IMG/VR virus record: IMGVR_UViG_3300029448_000478
Span: 1-22,677 of that record
Origin: a virus
Length of the DNA stretch: 22,677 nt
Direction: 5' to 3' (one strand)
Shown here in pieces: positions 2,899-18,843 of the stretch (position 1 is the first letter of the stretch; every line of letters begins with the position of its first letter). Under the pieces are notes generated by a model. That model made no database searches, was not told where the DNA came from, and saw only the letters and a program-made list of their open reading frames with translations. The translations under genes were made by a program, and so were the position numbers.

Positions 2899-3210
2899 AT
2901 GGGTAGATACGAAAATACAGTGACTAAGAAAAATAAAATAGGACAAAGGGTATATGGTATTACTCTCTATCCATCAATACCGATTCAAGATGGTGATAAA
3001 TTTTATGTCCCAACAGATGGAGAGAGATTGGATACCTTAGCCCACAAGTTTTATGGTGACACCTCACTTTGGTGGATAATTGCAGAGGCAAATTTTCTGA
3101 AAAATGGAAGTTTTTCACTCGATCCTGATAAAGAATTAAGAATACCAATGAATATTAGTCCTATACTAACGGAGTTCAGAAGTATAAATCAAGAATTTTT
3201 GAACAGATAA
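2899..3210 (+). CDS. Small LysM-like baseplate wedge protein (gp53-type)
   Basis: A 103-residue protein. Residues 41-84 form a LysM-like unit: GERLDTLAHKFYGDTSLWW, then a helix (IIAEAN), then a DPDKELRIP strand. In contractile-tail phages this arrangement is typical of the small baseplate wedge protein (T4 gp53 has an equivalent 'LANAIYGNPQLYWVLL' helix) and of P2 gpX-type LysM tail proteins. The gene starts 3 bases after the upstream structural gene and ends 4 bases before the hub-like gene, so the three are one translational block. It probably sits in the virion baseplate. It could instead be a LysM protein of the tube end rather than a strict gp53 homologue. Confidence 0.75.
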   Translation: MGRYENTVTKKNKIGQRVYGITLYPSIPIQDGDKFYVPTDGERLDTLAHKFYGDTSLWWIIAEANFLKNGSFSLDPDKELRIPMNISPILTEFRSINQEFLNR

Positions 3211-7625: not shown

Positions 7626-8900
7626 GTGATAATAGAAAAAGACAATCAATTAGAGGATTTCTTACAAGAAAACGAAAATAAAGATTGTTTCATAATTCCA
7701 ATTTTGTCGGATGTAAATCTACATCCACTCAAAAACACTCTGTGTGCTGTGTATGTAAAAATAGTAGATGGGGTGGAGAGAATATTGTGCTTCAATCATG
7801 GTGAAACACTAAAAATAAAATTAGAATTACTCTTGACATTGGATAAACTTGGTCGTAAGTTTGTTTATGATAAAAAACAACTTAATCATATAGTAAAACT
7901 TAATGATGTGGTTGATGTGAACTTACAATACTATATGAGTAAGAATGAACCATTGGAATGGGACGAATTATCCACCAATACACATGATTACTTTCACCGA
8001 GTAATGTGGAAAATGAAAAACACAAATCGTATCATACCAATATTAAAACATTTGGAGTTATGTAGAGAACAGGTTAAGTTATTGGAGAAGCATTATGAAT
8101 TACCAATTCATGAAAAATACAATGATGAGATTATCGGTAATTTAAGTTTTATTGAAAGGGGTGGGTTGAAAAAAGATGATGAGATGGTTTATAGTGAATA
8201 CAATCTATACACCTCAACTGGTAGACCGAGTAATAGATTCGGTGGTATTAACTTTGCCGCCCTCAACAAAAAGGATGGTTCAAGAAAACCATATGTGAGT
8301 CGGTTCGATGATGGGATGTTAGTTGAGTTTGACTATGATGCATATCACTTGAGATTAATAGGACATATATTAGACTATGAGTTTCCAAATGGTTCTGTTC
8401 ATGAGCACATGGCTGAATTTTATGGTGATGTGGATTATGAAACCTCTAAACAGACATCATTTCAGTATCTATATGGTAGGATACCACAAAAAATTATAGA
8501 TACTAACCCATTCTTTTATATTGTGAATGATTACATTACAAAAATTTGGAAGGATTTTAAACGAAGAGATTTGGTAAAAAGTGATATTTATAATAAGGAA
8601 ATACACAAAAAAAATCTTTCTGCCATGAATCGTAATAAGTTGTTTAATTACATGATTCAATTATTAGAAACGGAAAACAACATGAAGGTGTTGAATGATT
8701 TAGTTCCGTATTTAAGAGATAAAAAGAGTAAGTTGATTCTTTATAGTTACGATAGTTTCCTATTTGACTTCAAGATTGAAGATGGATTGGGATTTATAAA
8801 AGATGTCAAGGGTATATTAGAACAGAATGGAGTGTTTCCTACCAAGACATCAAAGGGATTGAATTATCACGAAATGAAAGATATAACGGAGAAATTATGA
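7626..8900 (+). CDS. Divergent family-A (Pol I-like) DNA polymerase domain protein
   Basis: A 424-residue protein starting with GTG (ATAGG lies just upstream). The C-terminal 230 residues follow the Pol I palm/fingers order: STGRPSNRFGGIN (197-209, like TGRLSS..PN), motif A DYDAYHLRLIGH (236-247, catalytic-type D236), motif B KQTSFQYLYG (K275, F279, Y283), a Q-helix-like NYMIQLLETENN (341-352), and motif C YSYDSFLFD (D376). The N-terminal 110 residues could be a reduced 3'-5' exonuclease domain (QLNHIVKLNDVVDVNLQYY). Differences from Pol I: the Glu of motif A is His, the motif B Arg is missing, and the motif C HDE reads YDS. The two metal-binding Asp residues are still present, so activity is possible. 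The start of the next gene overlaps the stop by ATGA. It may be the replicative polymerase, an accessory enzyme, or partly degenerate. Confidence 0.72.
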   Translation: MIIEKDNQLEDFLQENENKDCFIIPILSDVNLHPLKNTLCAVYVKIVDGVERILCFNHGETLKIKLELLLTLDKLGRKFVYDKKQLNHIVKLNDVVDVNLQYYMSKNEPLEWDELSTNTHDYFHRVMWKMKNTNRIIPILKHLELCREQVKLLEKHYELPIHEKYNDEIIGNLSFIERGGLKKDDEMVYSEYNLYTSTGRPSNRFGGINFAALNKKDGSRKPYVSRFDDGMLVEFDYDAYHLRLIGHILDYEFPNGSVHEHMAEFYGDVDYETSKQTSFQYLYGRIPQKIIDTNPFFYIVNDYITKIWKDFKRRDLVKSDIYNKEIHKKNLSAMNRNKLFNYMIQLLETENNMKVLNDLVPYLRDKKSKLILYSYDSFLFDFKIEDGLGFIKDVKGILEQNGVFPTKTSKGLNYHEMKDITEKL

Positions 8901-11014
8901 GTTATTGGGATAAAATAATGGAGGGTTTTAATTACAAATCAAAAGGCGGTGCTCCTGATTTTACCAATCCAAATCATAGGTTATTATTGAGACAGCAATT
9001 ACTAAGTAGTGGTTGGAATGAAAACGCCGTAAACGAGTTATTATATAATCTAACTGAAACAAAGGATGAAACAGACGATTCGTGGTGGACAAAGATGACT
9101 CCACAGCAACAAAAAGATTATATTAAAAAACATCCGAAGTCACAAAAAGCCATGGATGCTGAAAAGGAAAAAGATAAGAAAGACAAAAAACAAAAGTCTT
9201 CGAAACCAACTAAAGAATTAAATGATGTTGATAAAGATTTTTATGATAGGGATGTAGAACCTAATGACAGCGAGTATCAAAGAAGAGTCGAAGCTGGACA
9301 GGTTACTAATGCTGGATTGAAGGATGAAAGTAAAAGAATCACAAGGGATACCATAGCTAAACATTTTCCACCAGGTGTTCCAAAAAAGTATATCGATACG
9401 ATGGTTAGGTTATTAAATTCAAATGGTAATGTAAATATGACGGATGTACTTGATGGTTCGGGAGCAGGAAAGATGCCGGCACAGGCAGCAGAACTATTCA
9501 CCATGATGGCCGCAACAATGAATGATGAACAATTTAATGGTTTGATGAGTGTTATTAATGACCATCACAATAACTTAGAAAACCCTCGTGAGAGACTTTT
9601 CGATAAGGATTGGTTAGAATCTATCGCTGGTGCCAGGGCAAGTATTAGAGATATGGCAGGAGATGATGATATAGAGTTTGGAGCTTGGGACTTGAAGGAT
9701 GAAGTTGAAGCCATGGGGTTAGATTATAATAAAAAAGGTTTTTCAACCGATGTATATTTTAGAACCAAGTCAGGTAAATTAATTGAGGTATCTTTAAAGA
9801 AAGACACCAAAGTCATGTTTGCACAACCGAGTGCAGGTGGTCATGTAGAGGATAAGGCGTTTGAATCACTTTCCAAAAAATCTCCTAAACTTGTTGAAAG
9901 AGCAAGAAAAAATCGAAAGAGAATTGAAGAGTTAAAGTTGAAAAAGAAAGACAAGACCATCACTAAAGAAGAACAACAAGAATTAGGAAAGTTGAAAGAC
10001 TTTAATGATAGAATTCGAAAGGTGGCGATGAACGAACTGTATGGAGAGGACAATCCAGCTAATCCAGTTCGAGCACAAAATGAACAAGAAAAAAGCACCG
10101 ATAGAATGGGAAGGTCTATCACACAGGATGATGTTGCTGAGTTAGAAGGCATTACTGATGAAGAGATAGATGAAATGAGTGGGACACAAGGTATGCCAAC
10201 TGCAGGTATGGATACTGCTACATTGAAGGGTGTTAGACAACTTACCGATGAGATGAAGAAAGCTGGTTATAATGTTCCACCAATAAAGAAAAAAGTCTAT
10301 GACAATTTTATGAAAAATCATGGTGGTGATATAATGGTACCTGATAAAAGAGGTAACATGATACCTCTTAAAAAATTATTAGGAACTGGTCAGAAGTATT
10401 ACGCAAAAACATTAGTAATGATGAATAAGATGTTGGCCAGAAAGGGTAACAAAAAGGCACAGGAAAGAGTTGACTCACACTTACAGATAGGAAAAGATTT
10501 CGAGGAAGCATTCCTCAGAGAGACATTAAATCTTAACACACCTGCAGGAAGGGCAATGTATGATTCAACAATGGACATGATAGCTGAAAAGTTTCCATTA
10601 AAGGCAATGATGGAAGGTGAAGAAGCAATGGCATTAGGTGGTCTTCGTTGTGATCCTGAAGTTTTAGGTGAGGTATTCGGTGTTAATCCTGAAACAAATA
10701 AACCATATACCTATGATGAATTGTCCAAAAAGTTAAAGATAAAAGATGGTAGGTTAGTATTAGAAATAGATGGTCAAGAACCAGTGGTGGTAGCAGACTT
10801 CGTGGTTAGAAATAAAGGTAAGGGGTATAACTCACTAAATTCAGCATCATTCGAGATGAAATTACCTGATGATATGAAACGAAGATTATATTGTTCAAAC
10901 AAAAAACTGGCAGAGAAGAAAGGTGTATCGAGAGATGACTTTAGGAAACGACTATCAGAGGTTGAAATAAAGAATCAAGATAAACTAAAGAAAACTTATG
11001 GGGAGTGTAAATAA
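8897..11014 (+). CDS. Large unknown protein with possible PD-(D/E)XK-like nuclease signature
   Basis: A 705-residue protein whose ATG overlaps the previous stop (ATGA). Residues 63-85 (WWTKMTPQQQKDYIKKHP and on) are a short helical motif I associate with large multi-domain phage proteins. Residues 86-115 are a lysine-rich linker. At 283-302 the sequence STDVYFRTKSGKLIEVSLKK has the order D285 - strand - E297 - SLK301, like the metal-binding core of restriction-type PD-(D/E)XK nucleases, although the exact ExK spacing is not met. Residues about 325-380 are predicted helical and highly charged. The C-terminal part has no recognised family. Translational coupling to the polymerase-like gene suggests a role in DNA metabolism, but a virion role is equally open. 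Nuclease activity is only a hypothesis. Confidence 0.7.
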   Translation: MSYWDKIMEGFNYKSKGGAPDFTNPNHRLLLRQQLLSSGWNENAVNELLYNLTETKDETDDSWWTKMTPQQQKDYIKKHPKSQKAMDAEKEKDKKDKKQKSSKPTKELNDVDKDFYDRDVEPNDSEYQRRVEAGQVTNAGLKDESKRITRDTIAKHFPPGVPKKYIDTMVRLLNSNGNVNMTDVLDGSGAGKMPAQAAELFTMMAATMNDEQFNGLMSVINDHHNNLENPRERLFDKDWLESIAGARASIRDMAGDDDIEFGAWDLKDEVEAMGLDYNKKGFSTDVYFRTKSGKLIEVSLKKDTKVMFAQPSAGGHVEDKAFESLSKKSPKLVERARKNRKRIEELKLKKKDKTITKEEQQELGKLKDFNDRIRKVAMNELYGEDNPANPVRAQNEQEKSTDRMGRSITQDDVAELEGITDEEIDEMSGTQGMPTAGMDTATLKGVRQLTDEMKKAGYNVPPIKKKVYDNFMKNHGGDIMVPDKRGNMIPLKKLLGTGQKYYAKTLVMMNKMLARKGNKKAQERVDSHLQIGKDFEEAFLRETLNLNTPAGRAMYDSTMDMIAEKFPLKAMMEGEEAMALGGLRCDPEVLGEVFGVNPETNKPYTYDELSKKLKIKDGRLVLEIDGQEPVVVADFVVRNKGKGYNSLNSASFEMKLPDDMKRRLYCSNKKLAEKKGVSRDDFRKRLSEVEIKNQDKLKKTYGECK

Positions 11015-11430
11015 TGAGAACACAATTACTTTGTACATTTACCGCAGAAGATAGATTAAAGTTTGTGGTAGATTTAATAATAGCATCACATGATGTTCTG
11101 TTTGATAAAATCTATGTGTTCACGAACCAAAAAGATTCGTCACAGTTAATATGCACTTACAACATACCAAACAACCAAGATAATTTTATCGAAGGTATGG
11201 ATACTATAGCATTACATCGTAAGAAACAATCCAATACATTATACACGATAAATGCACTCAACGAGGTCATCAGAAAAAAGAATAATGGAGTATTGGATAA
11301 AAAATTTCCAATAGAATGGAGTGAGTTTCAAAACTCATTATTGTTAGTCAATGATAAAGGACTAAACATCATACCAACAAGAATTCATAAAATAATCAAT
11401 ACGGAGACTTGGTCAAACGAAAACTTCTAA
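11014..11430 (+). CDS. Small conserved-looking protein of unknown function
   Basis: A 138-residue protein starting MRTQLLCTFT; its ATG overlaps the previous stop (TAATG) and its own stop overlaps the next ATG the same way. The pattern is alternating strands and helices (DRLKFVVDLIIASHDVLFDKIYVFTN, then LICTYNIP), suggesting a small alpha/beta domain with a C-terminal extension. No membrane segment, signal peptide or catalytic motif is visible. I have a faint recollection of similar small proteins next to replication genes in other T4-like phages, but cannot name a family. Its position inside a coupled chain makes the gene itself convincing. Confidence 0.7.
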   Translation: MRTQLLCTFTAEDRLKFVVDLIIASHDVLFDKIYVFTNQKDSSQLICTYNIPNNQDNFIEGMDTIALHRKKQSNTLYTINALNEVIRKKNNGVLDKKFPIEWSEFQNSLLLVNDKGLNIIPTRIHKIINTETWSNENF

Positions 11431-12269
11431 TGAATTATAGGTTTTACTATCCTGATTGGAACAGCAGGGAAGACATCTGTTCCAAACATCCTGAAATCAA
11501 AGAAATCACTAAAGAACCCACAGCTTTTTGGTATGGTGTTGGGCCTAAACGAACCATTAGAAAGACCAAACACTCAATACAAAGATTACTCAAACGAGCA
11601 CATCCATATTTACCAACATTAGTAATTTACTCGATACCCAATAGGGATTTAGGAGCACACTCAAAAGGTGGTGCAGAAAGTGATGATGAGTATTTGGAAT
11701 TCATTCAAGAGTTTTGTAATTCACTTGGAGACAAATCACCAATAGTAATATATGAACCTGATTGTATACCACACATGGAACACATGGGTGTGGTTGATGG
11801 AATGGATAGGTTGAGTTTAATCAAGGCCTCTGTTGAATTATTGAGTAGGACAAACGCTCTTGTATACTTGGATATAGGACATCCCAAATGGTTAAGTCCA
11901 TCCAAGGCCACGAGTTATCTAAGACTATGTGATGTTCATAAGATAAAAGGATTCACACTCAACACGAGTAATTACTACGCCACATCAACTTGTTATAAAT
12001 ATGGAAAGGATATTTCCAAAAGATTGGATGACACACACTTCGTCATCGATACCTCACGAAATGGAAACGGAGCTAACTCCGAACATTTCAATCCCTATGG
12101 TCGTGCCTTAGGAGAACCACCCACAACAAATACCTGTGATGAGATAGTGGATGCTTATCTATGGGTAAAGGTGCCAGGTGAAAGCGATGGAGCCGTAAAT
12201 GGTGGCCCAAAGGCTGGTAGGTTCTCCCATAACCTAGCACTCGACCTAATTCATAATAAAAAAAGTTAA
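11430..12269 (+). CDS. Glycoside hydrolase family 6 (cellulase-type) catalytic domain
   Basis: A 279-residue protein that is almost entirely a GH6 domain, the family of inverting endoglucanases and cellobiohydrolases that cut beta-1,4-glucan. Hallmarks in order: SIPNRDLGAHSKGGA (68-82, D73), IVIYEPD (105-111, the usual acid, D111), VYLDIGH (145-151), GFTLNTSNY (174-182), VIDTSRNGNG (205-214), NPYGRALG (221-228), DAYLWVKVPGESDG (241-254, D253). All the catalytic-site aspartates are kept. There is no signal peptide, linker or carbohydrate-binding module, and the cysteines that secreted relatives place after RD, after W of WC(N/D)P and after DG are L74, F220 and A255, fitting a cytoplasmic or virion protein. 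I chose ATG 11430, which overlaps the previous stop (TAATG), over the TTG at 11409. The natural substrate (cell-surface glucan, exopolysaccharide, host polymer) is unknown. Confidence 0.9.
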   Translation: MNYRFYYPDWNSREDICSKHPEIKEITKEPTAFWYGVGPKRTIRKTKHSIQRLLKRAHPYLPTLVIYSIPNRDLGAHSKGGAESDDEYLEFIQEFCNSLGDKSPIVIYEPDCIPHMEHMGVVDGMDRLSLIKASVELLSRTNALVYLDIGHPKWLSPSKATSYLRLCDVHKIKGFTLNTSNYYATSTCYKYGKDISKRLDDTHFVIDTSRNGNGANSEHFNPYGRALGEPPTTNTCDEIVDAYLWVKVPGESDGAVNGGPKAGRFSHNLALDLIHNKKS

Positions 12270-12316: not shown

Positions 12317-12339
12317 AATATATGATAAAGAGAGATAAA

Positions 12340-13056
12340 ATGAAAAAGATAAAACTCACAAAAGAAACTAAAAAACATTGGTTTCACGCAAAAGCGTATA
12401 ACAATGAACCAATATTAAATAAACATCATATCATTCCGAGACATCATGGGGGTGTAGATGAACCTCATAACATGACCCCACCGTTGACCTTGATGGAACA
12501 CGCAGAAATGCATCTTGATATCCACAAGAATGGTATTGAGGGAGTCAAAGGAACCAAAGGTTGTAAAGAATGTCTGAAAAACTACAAAACCTTAAAGGGA
12601 CAACATGAGAAATTCAAAATACTAGCCGAGTTATATAAAGGTGATGTCGATACGATAGAATTTTATCGTTACGAAAATAAAGAACCAAATGTCTTAGATG
12701 AAATTTGGGAAGTCACAATTGGTGATGAAAAAGAACACATAGATACATGGGATGTTTCACAGACTATTGGTTATGAAGCAGGTGTTTATGAAAATACAGA
12801 GTTTGAGACACCAGATCATGAAATGATGAAAGATTCCTTGAATGAGGAAGTGACTTGTGTTTTGGACACCCTAAGTGAAAGAGAAAGAATTATTACTGAG
12901 ATGTTCTTTGGAATCAATAGAGAAGATCAATTGACATTGGATGAAATAGGTGAAGAGTTTGATTTAACTCGTGAAAGAGTTCGAGGTATCAAAGAAAAGT
13001 CCATTCAACGACTTCGTCATAGGTCAAGAAGTCAACCACTAAAGTGGTATATTTGA
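12340..13056 (+). CDS. HNH nuclease-like domain fused to sigma-70 region 4
   Basis: A 238-residue protein. Residues 27-62 have an HNH-type pattern: NKHHIIPRHHGG (27-38), N44, and HAEMH (54-58), as in phage HNH and homing endonucleases; CKEC at 75-78 could bind metal. Residues about 165-238 match regions 4.1 and 4.2 of primary sigma factors: LSERERIITEMFFGI (178-192), LTLDEIGEEF (198-207), then the -35-reading helix LTRERVRGIKEKSIQRLRH (209-227) and SRSQPL. In E. coli RpoD the same helix reads TRERIRQIEAK, so the Arg and Glu that contact the -35 element are kept and the following Gln is Gly. Sigma regions 1-3 are absent. It may be a homing endonuclease using region 4 to find promoters, or a phage regulator binding RNA polymerase. 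AGAGA precedes ATG 12340; the ATG at 12322 is too close to the transcription start. Confidence 0.82.
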   Translation: MKKIKLTKETKKHWFHAKAYNNEPILNKHHIIPRHHGGVDEPHNMTPPLTLMEHAEMHLDIHKNGIEGVKGTKGCKECLKNYKTLKGQHEKFKILAELYKGDVDTIEFYRYENKEPNVLDEIWEVTIGDEKEHIDTWDVSQTIGYEAGVYENTEFETPDHEMMKDSLNEEVTCVLDTLSERERIITEMFFGINREDQLTLDEIGEEFDLTRERVRGIKEKSIQRLRHRSRSQPLKWYI

Positions 13057-16957: not shown

Positions 16958-17719
16958 ATGGATATTAACGCCGTAAGAAAGAGGTTAGCTCAATTACAAA
17001 CGACTAACACTCGAACTACAAATCTATGGAAACCCCAGCCGGGTAAAACTCAAATCAGAATCTGCCCTTACAAACTACAAAAAGACACTCCGTTTATTGA
17101 GCTGTTTTTTCATTATGACTTAGGTGGAAAGTCTTATCTTTCACCAACTTCATTTGGAAGACCTGACCCAATCGAAGAGTTTGCTGACAAGTTAAAGTCA
17201 AGTGGTAATCGTGAGGATTGGAGACTTGGTAAGAAGTTAGAAGCAAAACTCAGAACATTCGCACCAGTAGTGGTTCGTGGAGAAGAAGCACAAGGTGTTA
17301 AGTTTTGGGGTTTTGGTAAAACTGTTTATCAAGAACTACTATCTATCATAGCAGATCCTGACTATGGTGACATATCCGACCCACTCAATGGTCGTGATGT
17401 CGGAGTTGAGTTTTTAACCGCCGAAGAGACTGGAGCATCGTTTCCAAAAACAAACATTCGTGTTAAACCAAATCAAACTCCTATCACAGAGGATAAGGCT
17501 CAACTTGAGAATATCTTAGACAATCAAAAAGACATTACGGAAGTTTATCAAGAATTATCTTATGATGAACTAAGTGATGCTCTTAATAATTGGTTGACAC
17601 CCGATGATGAAGAAAAGGAAGAAACTAAAGACGAATCAGTTCCAGCATCAACTTTAAAATCAGCAGTAAAGACTACTGAAAATGTAAGTGATGCTTTTGA
17701 TGACCTTTTTAACTCTTAA
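16958..17719 (+). CDS. Single-stranded DNA-binding protein (gp32-like)
   Basis: A 253-residue protein with the layout of T4 gp32: a basic N-terminus for cooperative binding (AVRKRLAQLQ, 5-14), a core (LWKPQPGKTQIRICPY, then KFWGFGKTVYQELLSIIADPDYGDISDP at 115-142) and an acidic tail (PDDEEKEETKDES, ending SDAFDDLFNS) of the kind that docks replication partners. Only one cysteine (C36) is present, so the gp32 zinc site (one His, three Cys) is missing. It coats single-stranded DNA during replication and recombination. AAGGAG lies 7-12 bases before the ATG. The recombinase gene starts 17 bases after its stop, so both are probably one transcript. Confidence 0.88.
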   Translation: MDINAVRKRLAQLQTTNTRTTNLWKPQPGKTQIRICPYKLQKDTPFIELFFHYDLGGKSYLSPTSFGRPDPIEEFADKLKSSGNREDWRLGKKLEAKLRTFAPVVVRGEEAQGVKFWGFGKTVYQELLSIIADPDYGDISDPLNGRDVGVEFLTAEETGASFPKTNIRVKPNQTPITEDKAQLENILDNQKDITEVYQELSYDELSDALNNWLTPDDEEKEETKDESVPASTLKSAVKTTENVSDAFDDLFNS

Positions 17720-17736: not shown

Positions 17737-18843
17737 ATGGCTTTAGCAGTCAAAGATGAGCTGGCACAGGCTCTTGCTGAAAATCTTAATAAGAACTTCA
17801 AGAACAATCGTGTAGCTTACTTTTTAGATGGAAGTGATTCCACTCCTACAGACATCAAGGAGTTTATATCAACTGGTTCATCTATCTTAGACTTAGCTAT
17901 TTCCAATAGACCAAATGGTGGAATCGCCGTTGGTCGTATAACCGAAATCAACGGATTGGAAAGTAGTGGTAAGTCTTTGATAGGAACTCACATATTAGCA
18001 GAAACTCAGAAGAAAGGTGGACTTGCCGTCTACATAGATACTGAGACTTCGGTTAGTCGTGAGTGGTTAGAAACAATTGGTATCGATGTACAAAACCTAC
18101 TTTATCTTCATGTTGAAACCGTAGAGGATATTTTTGAATGTATTGAAAATATTGTCTCAAAGGTTCGTGAAAGTGATAGAGATAGGTTAGTGACTATCTT
18201 GGTTGATAGTTTAGCTGCAGCCTCTACTAAGGTGGAGATGGAAGCTGACTATGACAAAGATGGATGGGCAACTTCTAAAGCCATTGTTATCTCAAAGGCT
18301 ATGAGAAAAATTACTCAAATGATTGGTAGAGAAAGAGTAGCTTTGGTATTTACAAACCAACTCAGACAAAAACTCGGAGTTATGTTTGGAGATCCGTGGA
18401 CAACAAGTGGTGGTAAAGCACTACCATTTCATTCTTCAACGCGTATTCGATTAAAGAATATGGGACAGATAAAGGACACGAAGAAAAATACTTTAGGTAT
18501 GAAAGCTCGAGCCCAAATAATCAAGAATAGATTAGGGCCACCATTGAGACATGCTGACTTTAACCTTTACTTCGATAGTGGTATTGATGATAAGGGAAGC
18601 TGGTTACAAGTCTTGAAAGACCACAAGTTACTAAAGGTAGCAGGAGCTTGGTACACCATTCAATACGAAGGTGAGGACATTAAATTCCAATCCAAAGATT
18701 TTAAGGGTGTATTAGAAAAAAATCCTGAACTCGAAGGACATTTGTATAAACAAATATGTGATGCATCAATCTTAAAATATCAAACCGAAGAGTTAGGTAT
18801 TGATGATGTGGAATATACAGACGAAGTGGTCGGCGATGAGTAA
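17737..18843 (+). CDS. RecA/UvsX-type recombinase
   Basis: A 368-residue RecA-family strand-exchange ATPase. Walker A is GLESSGKS (73-80), E103 in DTET is the usual catalytic glutamate, Walker B is TILVDSL (153-159), and the DNA-binding loop region reads TNQLRQKLGVMFGDPWTTSGG (from 206) followed by KALPFHSSTRIRL. That loop resembles bacterial RecA (NQIRxKIGVMFG...TTTGG) far more than T4 UvsX, although the neighbours are T4-like. AAGGAG sits 8-13 bases before the ATG. The next gene starts inside this gene's last codons (overlap 18836-18843). It partners gp32 in recombination-dependent replication and repair. Confidence 0.92.
   Translation: MALAVKDELAQALAENLNKNFKNNRVAYFLDGSDSTPTDIKEFISTGSSILDLAISNRPNGGIAVGRITEINGLESSGKSLIGTHILAETQKKGGLAVYIDTETSVSREWLETIGIDVQNLLYLHVETVEDIFECIENIVSKVRESDRDRLVTILVDSLAAASTKVEMEADYDKDGWATSKAIVISKAMRKITQMIGRERVALVFTNQLRQKLGVMFGDPWTTSGGKALPFHSSTRIRLKNMGQIKDTKKNTLGMKARAQIIKNRLGPPLRHADFNLYFDSGIDDKGSWLQVLKDHKLLKVAGAWYTIQYEGEDIKFQSKDFKGVLEKNPELEGHLYKQICDASILKYQTEELGIDDVEYTDEVVGDE

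Follow-up and report, generated by a model that had tools for sequence, protein, structure and literature searches.

A 22,677-nucleotide stretch of viral DNA, hereafter the window, encodes a 279-amino-acid glycoside hydrolase family 6 (GH6) protein with an intact active site and with neither an export signal nor the conserved disulfides of the family. From sequence comparison, we infer that phage GH6 is a large, old clade, common to two very different environmental phage groups and apart from the cellular GH6 proteins that we sampled. Some phages, then, probably carry their own cutter of beta-1,4-linked glycans.

Identity, active site and predicted structure of the GH6 protein

Translation of the window gave a stop-free open reading frame of 279 amino acids at 11430-12269 on the plus strand. 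The protein matched the Pfam family PF01341 (Glyco_hydro_6) with an E-value of 5.5e-47 and 161.5 bits, against a curated cutoff of 27 bits, over profile positions 14-299 of 305. Its top relative among PDB sequences was 1up0, Cel6 of M. tuberculosis (E 4e-50), followed by T. fusca Cel6A (1tml, 1e-41). The N-terminal residues M1-N2-Y3-R4-F5-Y6-Y7-P8 are invariant across the close family, and this conservation does not extend to the TTG at 11409 that would give a longer protein; we therefore place the start at M1.

The aspartates D73, D111 and D253 align with the catalytic RD, EPD and SDG blocks, and the fourth active-site aspartate, D148, is also present. All 61 phage-clade and all 26 bacterial sequences share these four residues, as well as Y67, E109, W154 and K247; E251 is also among the key residues noted. 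When the phage protein is set against T. fusca Cel6A, the RD, EPD, D(A/I)GH and SDG/ADG blocks all align, and we take D73, D111, D148 and D253 to be equivalent, by alignment, to D79, D117, D156 and D265 in T. fusca numbering. Against close relatives, the dN/dS of the GH6 gene was about 0.05-0.08, with dS near saturation, and this low ratio indicates strong purifying selection.

We modelled the protein from 76 sequences (mean pLDDT 88.7, pTM 0.90), and this model was used in place of an earlier one from 17 close sequences, which was dropped with a pLDDT of 54.6. The model matched M. tuberculosis Cel6 (1uoz/1up0) with a TM-score of 0.89; against 1up0 the Z-score was 33.1 over 276 residues at 2.5 A, with 34% identity. 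For T. fusca Cel6A (1tml, 2bod) the Z-score was 31-32 at about 31-33% identity. The longer cellobiohydrolases scored about 25-27, compared with 31-33 for endoglucanases. The phage protein is thus predicted to adopt the GH6 distorted barrel fold, and its 279-amino-acid length and best structural neighbours would fit the short endo form of the family. A structural search of BFVD with the phage protein returned no GH6, and its weak matches were other barrels.

Taken together, the profile match, the structural model and the genomic context support the assignment of the phage protein to GH6 with its active site intact. The original prediction of a GH6 domain with whole hallmark blocks, made from the letters of the DNA, is therefore confirmed, and both the profile and the structure searches place the protein within the family rather than outside it. 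From the family and the intact residues follows the prediction that the enzyme cleaves beta-1,4 bonds.

Export features, gene neighbourhood and the phage GH6 clade

GH6 is usually discussed as a family of secreted cellulases. The four cysteines of its two disulfides (CCCC) are kept in 26/26 of the bacterial homologues compared. Of the 61 phage-clade proteins, none keeps the first pair and 8 keep the second pair complete, and the window's own lineage has a cysteine at 0/4 of these positions. The phage rows have no hydrophobic stretch in their first 45 residues, where the top 12-residue mean hydropathy is 1.22. The protein begins at the catalytic domain, with structural alignment from residue 1, and signal peptide, linker and binding module are all absent, in keeping with its earlier description as a bare 279-residue domain. 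The catalytic-domain start, the lack of N-terminal hydrophobicity and the cysteine loss lead us to predict that phage GH6 folds in the reducing cytosol. Disulfide loss would suit any cytosolic life, and so it cannot separate release at lysis from virion packaging or intracellular action.

IMG/VR holds about 28 close relatives of the window protein (77-88% identity), and a broader query found at least 115 contigs encoding a GH6 relative, 80 of which were kept and read. Exactly one GH6 was present in each of the large phage contigs tested (10/10). Group 1 consists of the window, L001-L033 and the more distant L116-L118, and has the gene order ThyX, PolA-like, ORF705, ORF138, GH6, gp32, UvsX. About 28 independent contigs repeat this order and flank GH6 with phage genes, which upholds the claim that a phage carries the gene. 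Group 2 is the rest of L114-L164 and, besides GH6, has no gene matching the window; its GH6 neighbours are peptide deformylase and, by inspection, 2OG-oxygenase-like and glycosyltransferase-like genes. In G004, the sole group 2 member checked, the terminase is 58% identical to that of the jumbo Pseudomonas phage PA5oct. A Megablast search of INPHARED gave no match for the window and, for L139, tRNA genes only.

The original prediction also had GH6 adjoining a polymerase-type gene, and here it was mistaken, as ORF705 and ORF138 intervene. The DNA polymerase A-like gene (7626-8900, plus strand; sharing 34% identity with the family A DNA polymerase that Flavobacterium phage immuto encodes), ORF705 (8897-11014, plus strand), ORF138 (11014-11430, plus strand) and GH6 overlap by 1-4 nt, and the ORF138 stop, directly upstream, overlaps the GH6 ATG (TAATG). 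We read the four genes as one putative operon. ORF138 is conserved and is a marker of the phage group; it had no match among solved structures. ORF705 has a conserved N-terminus of about 55 amino acids and a hypervariable C-terminus, as do its homologues in L002-L031 and L116, and it had no Pfam or NCBIfam match. By eye, a stretch resembling PD-(D/E)XK can be seen in the window copy of ORF705, and one resembling HNH in the L004 copy.

Directly after GH6, a plus-strand gene at 12322-13056 encodes a sigma-70 region 4 domain, preceded by an N-terminus that matches HNH weakly, below the Pfam cutoff. The accessory slot that holds both is bordered downstream by a gene for a gp32-like single-strand DNA-binding protein (16958-17719, plus strand), and the UvsX/RecA-like recombinase gene (17737-18843, plus strand) was our yardstick for the backbone. 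ORF138 has at least 577 relatives in IMG/VR. Among the matches listed, the ORF138-gp32 gap was 83-124 nt in 43 of the 68 loci holding both genes, and GH6 lay between the two in 3 of 80 ORF138 loci; these fractions describe the listed matches and do not estimate prevalence. Other loci held different cargo, including pilin-like genes, and these varied contents make GH6 one among several inserts there. We conclude that, in the window's group, GH6 occupies an accessory slot that is empty in most relatives among the matches listed. The pilin-like genes are of type IV (L228:6628-8163 and L232:5338-6896), and two of them carry the PF07963 N-terminal methylation motif.

In a tree of 54 sequences, a branch supported at 100/100 separated the 27 phage rows from the rest, and a faster tree of 88 rows gave the same split between phage and cellular proteins. 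Bacterial rows in the trees and alignments were the best among the matches listed, and cellular relatives closer than those sampled could exist. Between the window and G004, identity was 24% for UvsX, 29% for gp41 and 27% for ThyX, compared with 48% over the full length for GH6. Within group 1, GH6 does not evolve more slowly than UvsX (81% and 86%, respectively, between the window and L012; 49% and 70% between the window and L118), so slow evolution does not account for the 48%. Such identity against diverged backbones argues that the gene moved between them, or that both drew on one phage-clade source. The two myovirus backbones thus appear to be anciently diverged, with the GH6 gene passed between phages. 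The GH6 of L116-L118, 49% identical to that of the window, sits at the same junction, and the tree joins it with group 1 at 98/93; it may have been inherited vertically from long ago or have replaced an earlier copy.

Candidate roles of the enzyme

Our preferred explanation, to which we assign an even chance, is that the protein is a long-adopted, inverting GH6 endo-beta-1,4-glycanase that folds in the cytosol and is released at lysis to cut a host-surface glycan. Phages would have acquired GH6 long ago and remodelled the protein for folding in the host cytoplasm. The enzyme would build up inside the infected cell until the phage's own holin and endolysin lysed the host and freed it. Freed GH6 could then cut beta-1,4-linked glycan in the host capsule, biofilm matrix or wall debris, letting progeny escape or avoid trapping. 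A broader version, put forward tentatively as a possibility, is that the phage-specific clade, passed between distant myoviruses, serves as a post-lysis glycan cutter beside the endolysin, with beta-1,4-glycan in the matrix or capsule of bacteria from aquatic habitats as its target. The substrate suggested at the outset, a beta-1,4-glucan or a comparable polymer of the envelope or matrix, is plausible by analogy.

Without an export signal, a cytosolic enzyme would need either lysis or a place on the virion to meet a polymer outside the cell. As a virion-associated depolymerase, GH6 would sit on the tail or baseplate and clear surface glycan at entry. The GH6 gene of group 1 does lie downstream of a baseplate block (gp53-like gene at 2899-3210 of the window), and in the Streptomyces phage Gilgamesh a GH6 protein with an extra N-terminal domain is encoded after annotated minor tail genes. 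However, the window-type protein is all catalytic domain and has no docking domain in its 279 amino acids, there are no tail genes among the group 2 neighbours, and the ORF138-gp32 slot of relatives holds non-structural cargo. The missing docking domain and the non-tail neighbours in group 2 lead us to prefer release at lysis, and we give virion carriage a modest chance at most.

We regard as rather unlikely an auxiliary metabolic gene, with hydrolysis of glucans or oligoglucans in or around the infected cell feeding phage production. The substrates of GH6 enzymes are beta-1,4-glycan polymers, which cells do not usually store in the cytosol, and an enzyme without a signal peptide cannot meet extracellular polymer before lysis. 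In its favor, many other metabolism-like genes are present in both phage groups, and a viromics study, in the passages compared, interprets GH6 in this way (PMC8725595).

It is doubtful that the enzyme is an accessory lysis factor, cutting the beta-1,4 glycan strand of peptidoglycan with or in place of an endolysin. Like typical endolysins, the protein is cytosolic and signal-less. According to a published study, the bacterial GH6 enzyme CslZ, which has no binding module, is active on cellulose, chitin and peptidoglycan; it degraded S. coelicolor peptidoglycan where its D120A mutant did not (PMC9040799). On the other hand, the nearest solved structures to phage GH6 are endoglucanases, the protein has no peptidoglycan-binding module, and members of both groups have dedicated endolysin-type genes separate from GH6: GH108 with PG_binding_3 in G001, a lysozyme type in G005-G008 and a GH19 type in G009. 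These separate endolysins make GH6 unlikely as the main lysis enzyme, and the idea that it is the only endolysin was dropped, given the lysozyme, GH108 and GH19 genes on the same contigs. Searches for the peptidase M15_4 and SLT families found neither, and no lysis cassette lay beside GH6 in the regions read.

Bacterial contamination or misassembly, of which the bacterial-looking MT836874 filed as a phage is a reminder, is ruled out by the order shared among about 28 independent contigs with flanking phage genes, by the single GH6 in 10/10 large phage contigs, and by the one clade of phage copies with a cysteine pattern not seen in bacterial homologues.

Group 1 hosts are likely Bacteroidota or neighbouring phyla. 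Flavobacterium (Immutovirus) and Microcystis are the hosts of isolates that share the backbone of group 1, and G001, G003, G015 and G016, all of group 1, encode a full-length outer membrane protein of the TonB-dependent-receptor type, of 936-948 amino acids, with CarboxypepD_reg and Plug domains. A TonB-dependent receptor with CarboxypepD_reg is typical of Bacteroidota and neighbouring phyla; on a phage, such a protein is unusual to our knowledge. In G001 the receptor-type gene (L259; G001:59200-62019) follows a ribonucleotide reductase gene and adjoins a glutamine synthetase gene (L168:2082-3071; G001:62082-63074). In group 2, G004:107217-110294 (L177) carries genes for a SufC-like ABC ATPase, a SufBD-core protein and a SufS-like class V aminotransferase, apparently a run of iron-sulfur assembly genes.

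A large, old phage clade in which catalytic residues are intact while export signal and disulfides are absent shows that phages have domesticated GH6 and that strong selection keeps it. If the enzyme acts at lysis, as we prefer, phage infection in aquatic habitats would be tied directly to degradation of the beta-1,4-glycan matrix, and the protein would offer a compact, disulfide-free GH6 for reducing conditions.

Comparison with known GH6 enzymes and phages

Phage GH6 shares its whole-domain fold and active-site aspartates with the endoglucanase Cel6 (CelA1) of M. tuberculosis (1up0, 1uoz), a cellular enzyme grouped with the secreted GH6 proteins; the phage protein differs in starting at the catalytic domain and in lacking the signal peptide and conserved disulfides. 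The same two features are missing in comparison with the endoglucanase Cel6A of T. fusca, which also bears a binding module and linker.

Carriage of GH6 by a phage had been called seldom reported. This holds for the annotated record (one isolate among 50,697 INPHARED phage records, no PHROGs family, one paper found), but the gene is not rare in nature, as at least 115 IMG/VR contigs encode a GH6 relative. GH6 on viruses was already known; for the clade itself, we found no PHROGs family, no NCBIfam entry and no description in the open-access literature searched. The top INPHARED match, MT836874 (L029), labelled Bacteriophage sp., was rejected as apparently bacterial DNA. Its ORFs include a TonB receptor-like protein, an AraC-like regulator and a hydrolase, and no phage-like gene was seen.

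On viral scaffolds from Mariana Trench sediments, GH6 is listed as an auxiliary metabolic gene and a proposed cellulase (PMC8725595). That account, which we compared by description only, calls the gene host-derived, from Gemmatimonadetes or Proteobacteria, and the passages compared mention neither a clade of phage proteins nor their architecture or loss of cysteines (PMC8725595). Our results suggest caution, in that viral GH6 is not always a recently stolen auxiliary metabolic gene. Among isolates, Flavobacterium phage vB_FspM_immuto (Immutovirus) and Microcystis phage Mel-JY01 have a window-like order around ORF138, gp32, 5'-3' exonuclease and helicase, and GH6 was found in neither in the INPHARED search.

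The single INPHARED isolate with GH6 is Gilgamesh, and its architecture is different. In the tree its protein is placed with the bacterial GH6 sequences, though the data do not reject a grouping with the phage family in a single clade (p-AU 0.07), so that it may lie inside or outside the phage clade. Gilgamesh gp72 (MN234216), annotated as a glycoside hydrolase, is likewise a phage GH6 domain without the first disulfide pair. Unlike the window protein, to which it is 33% identical, it has 444 amino acids, with the additional domain and minor tail gene neighbours described above.
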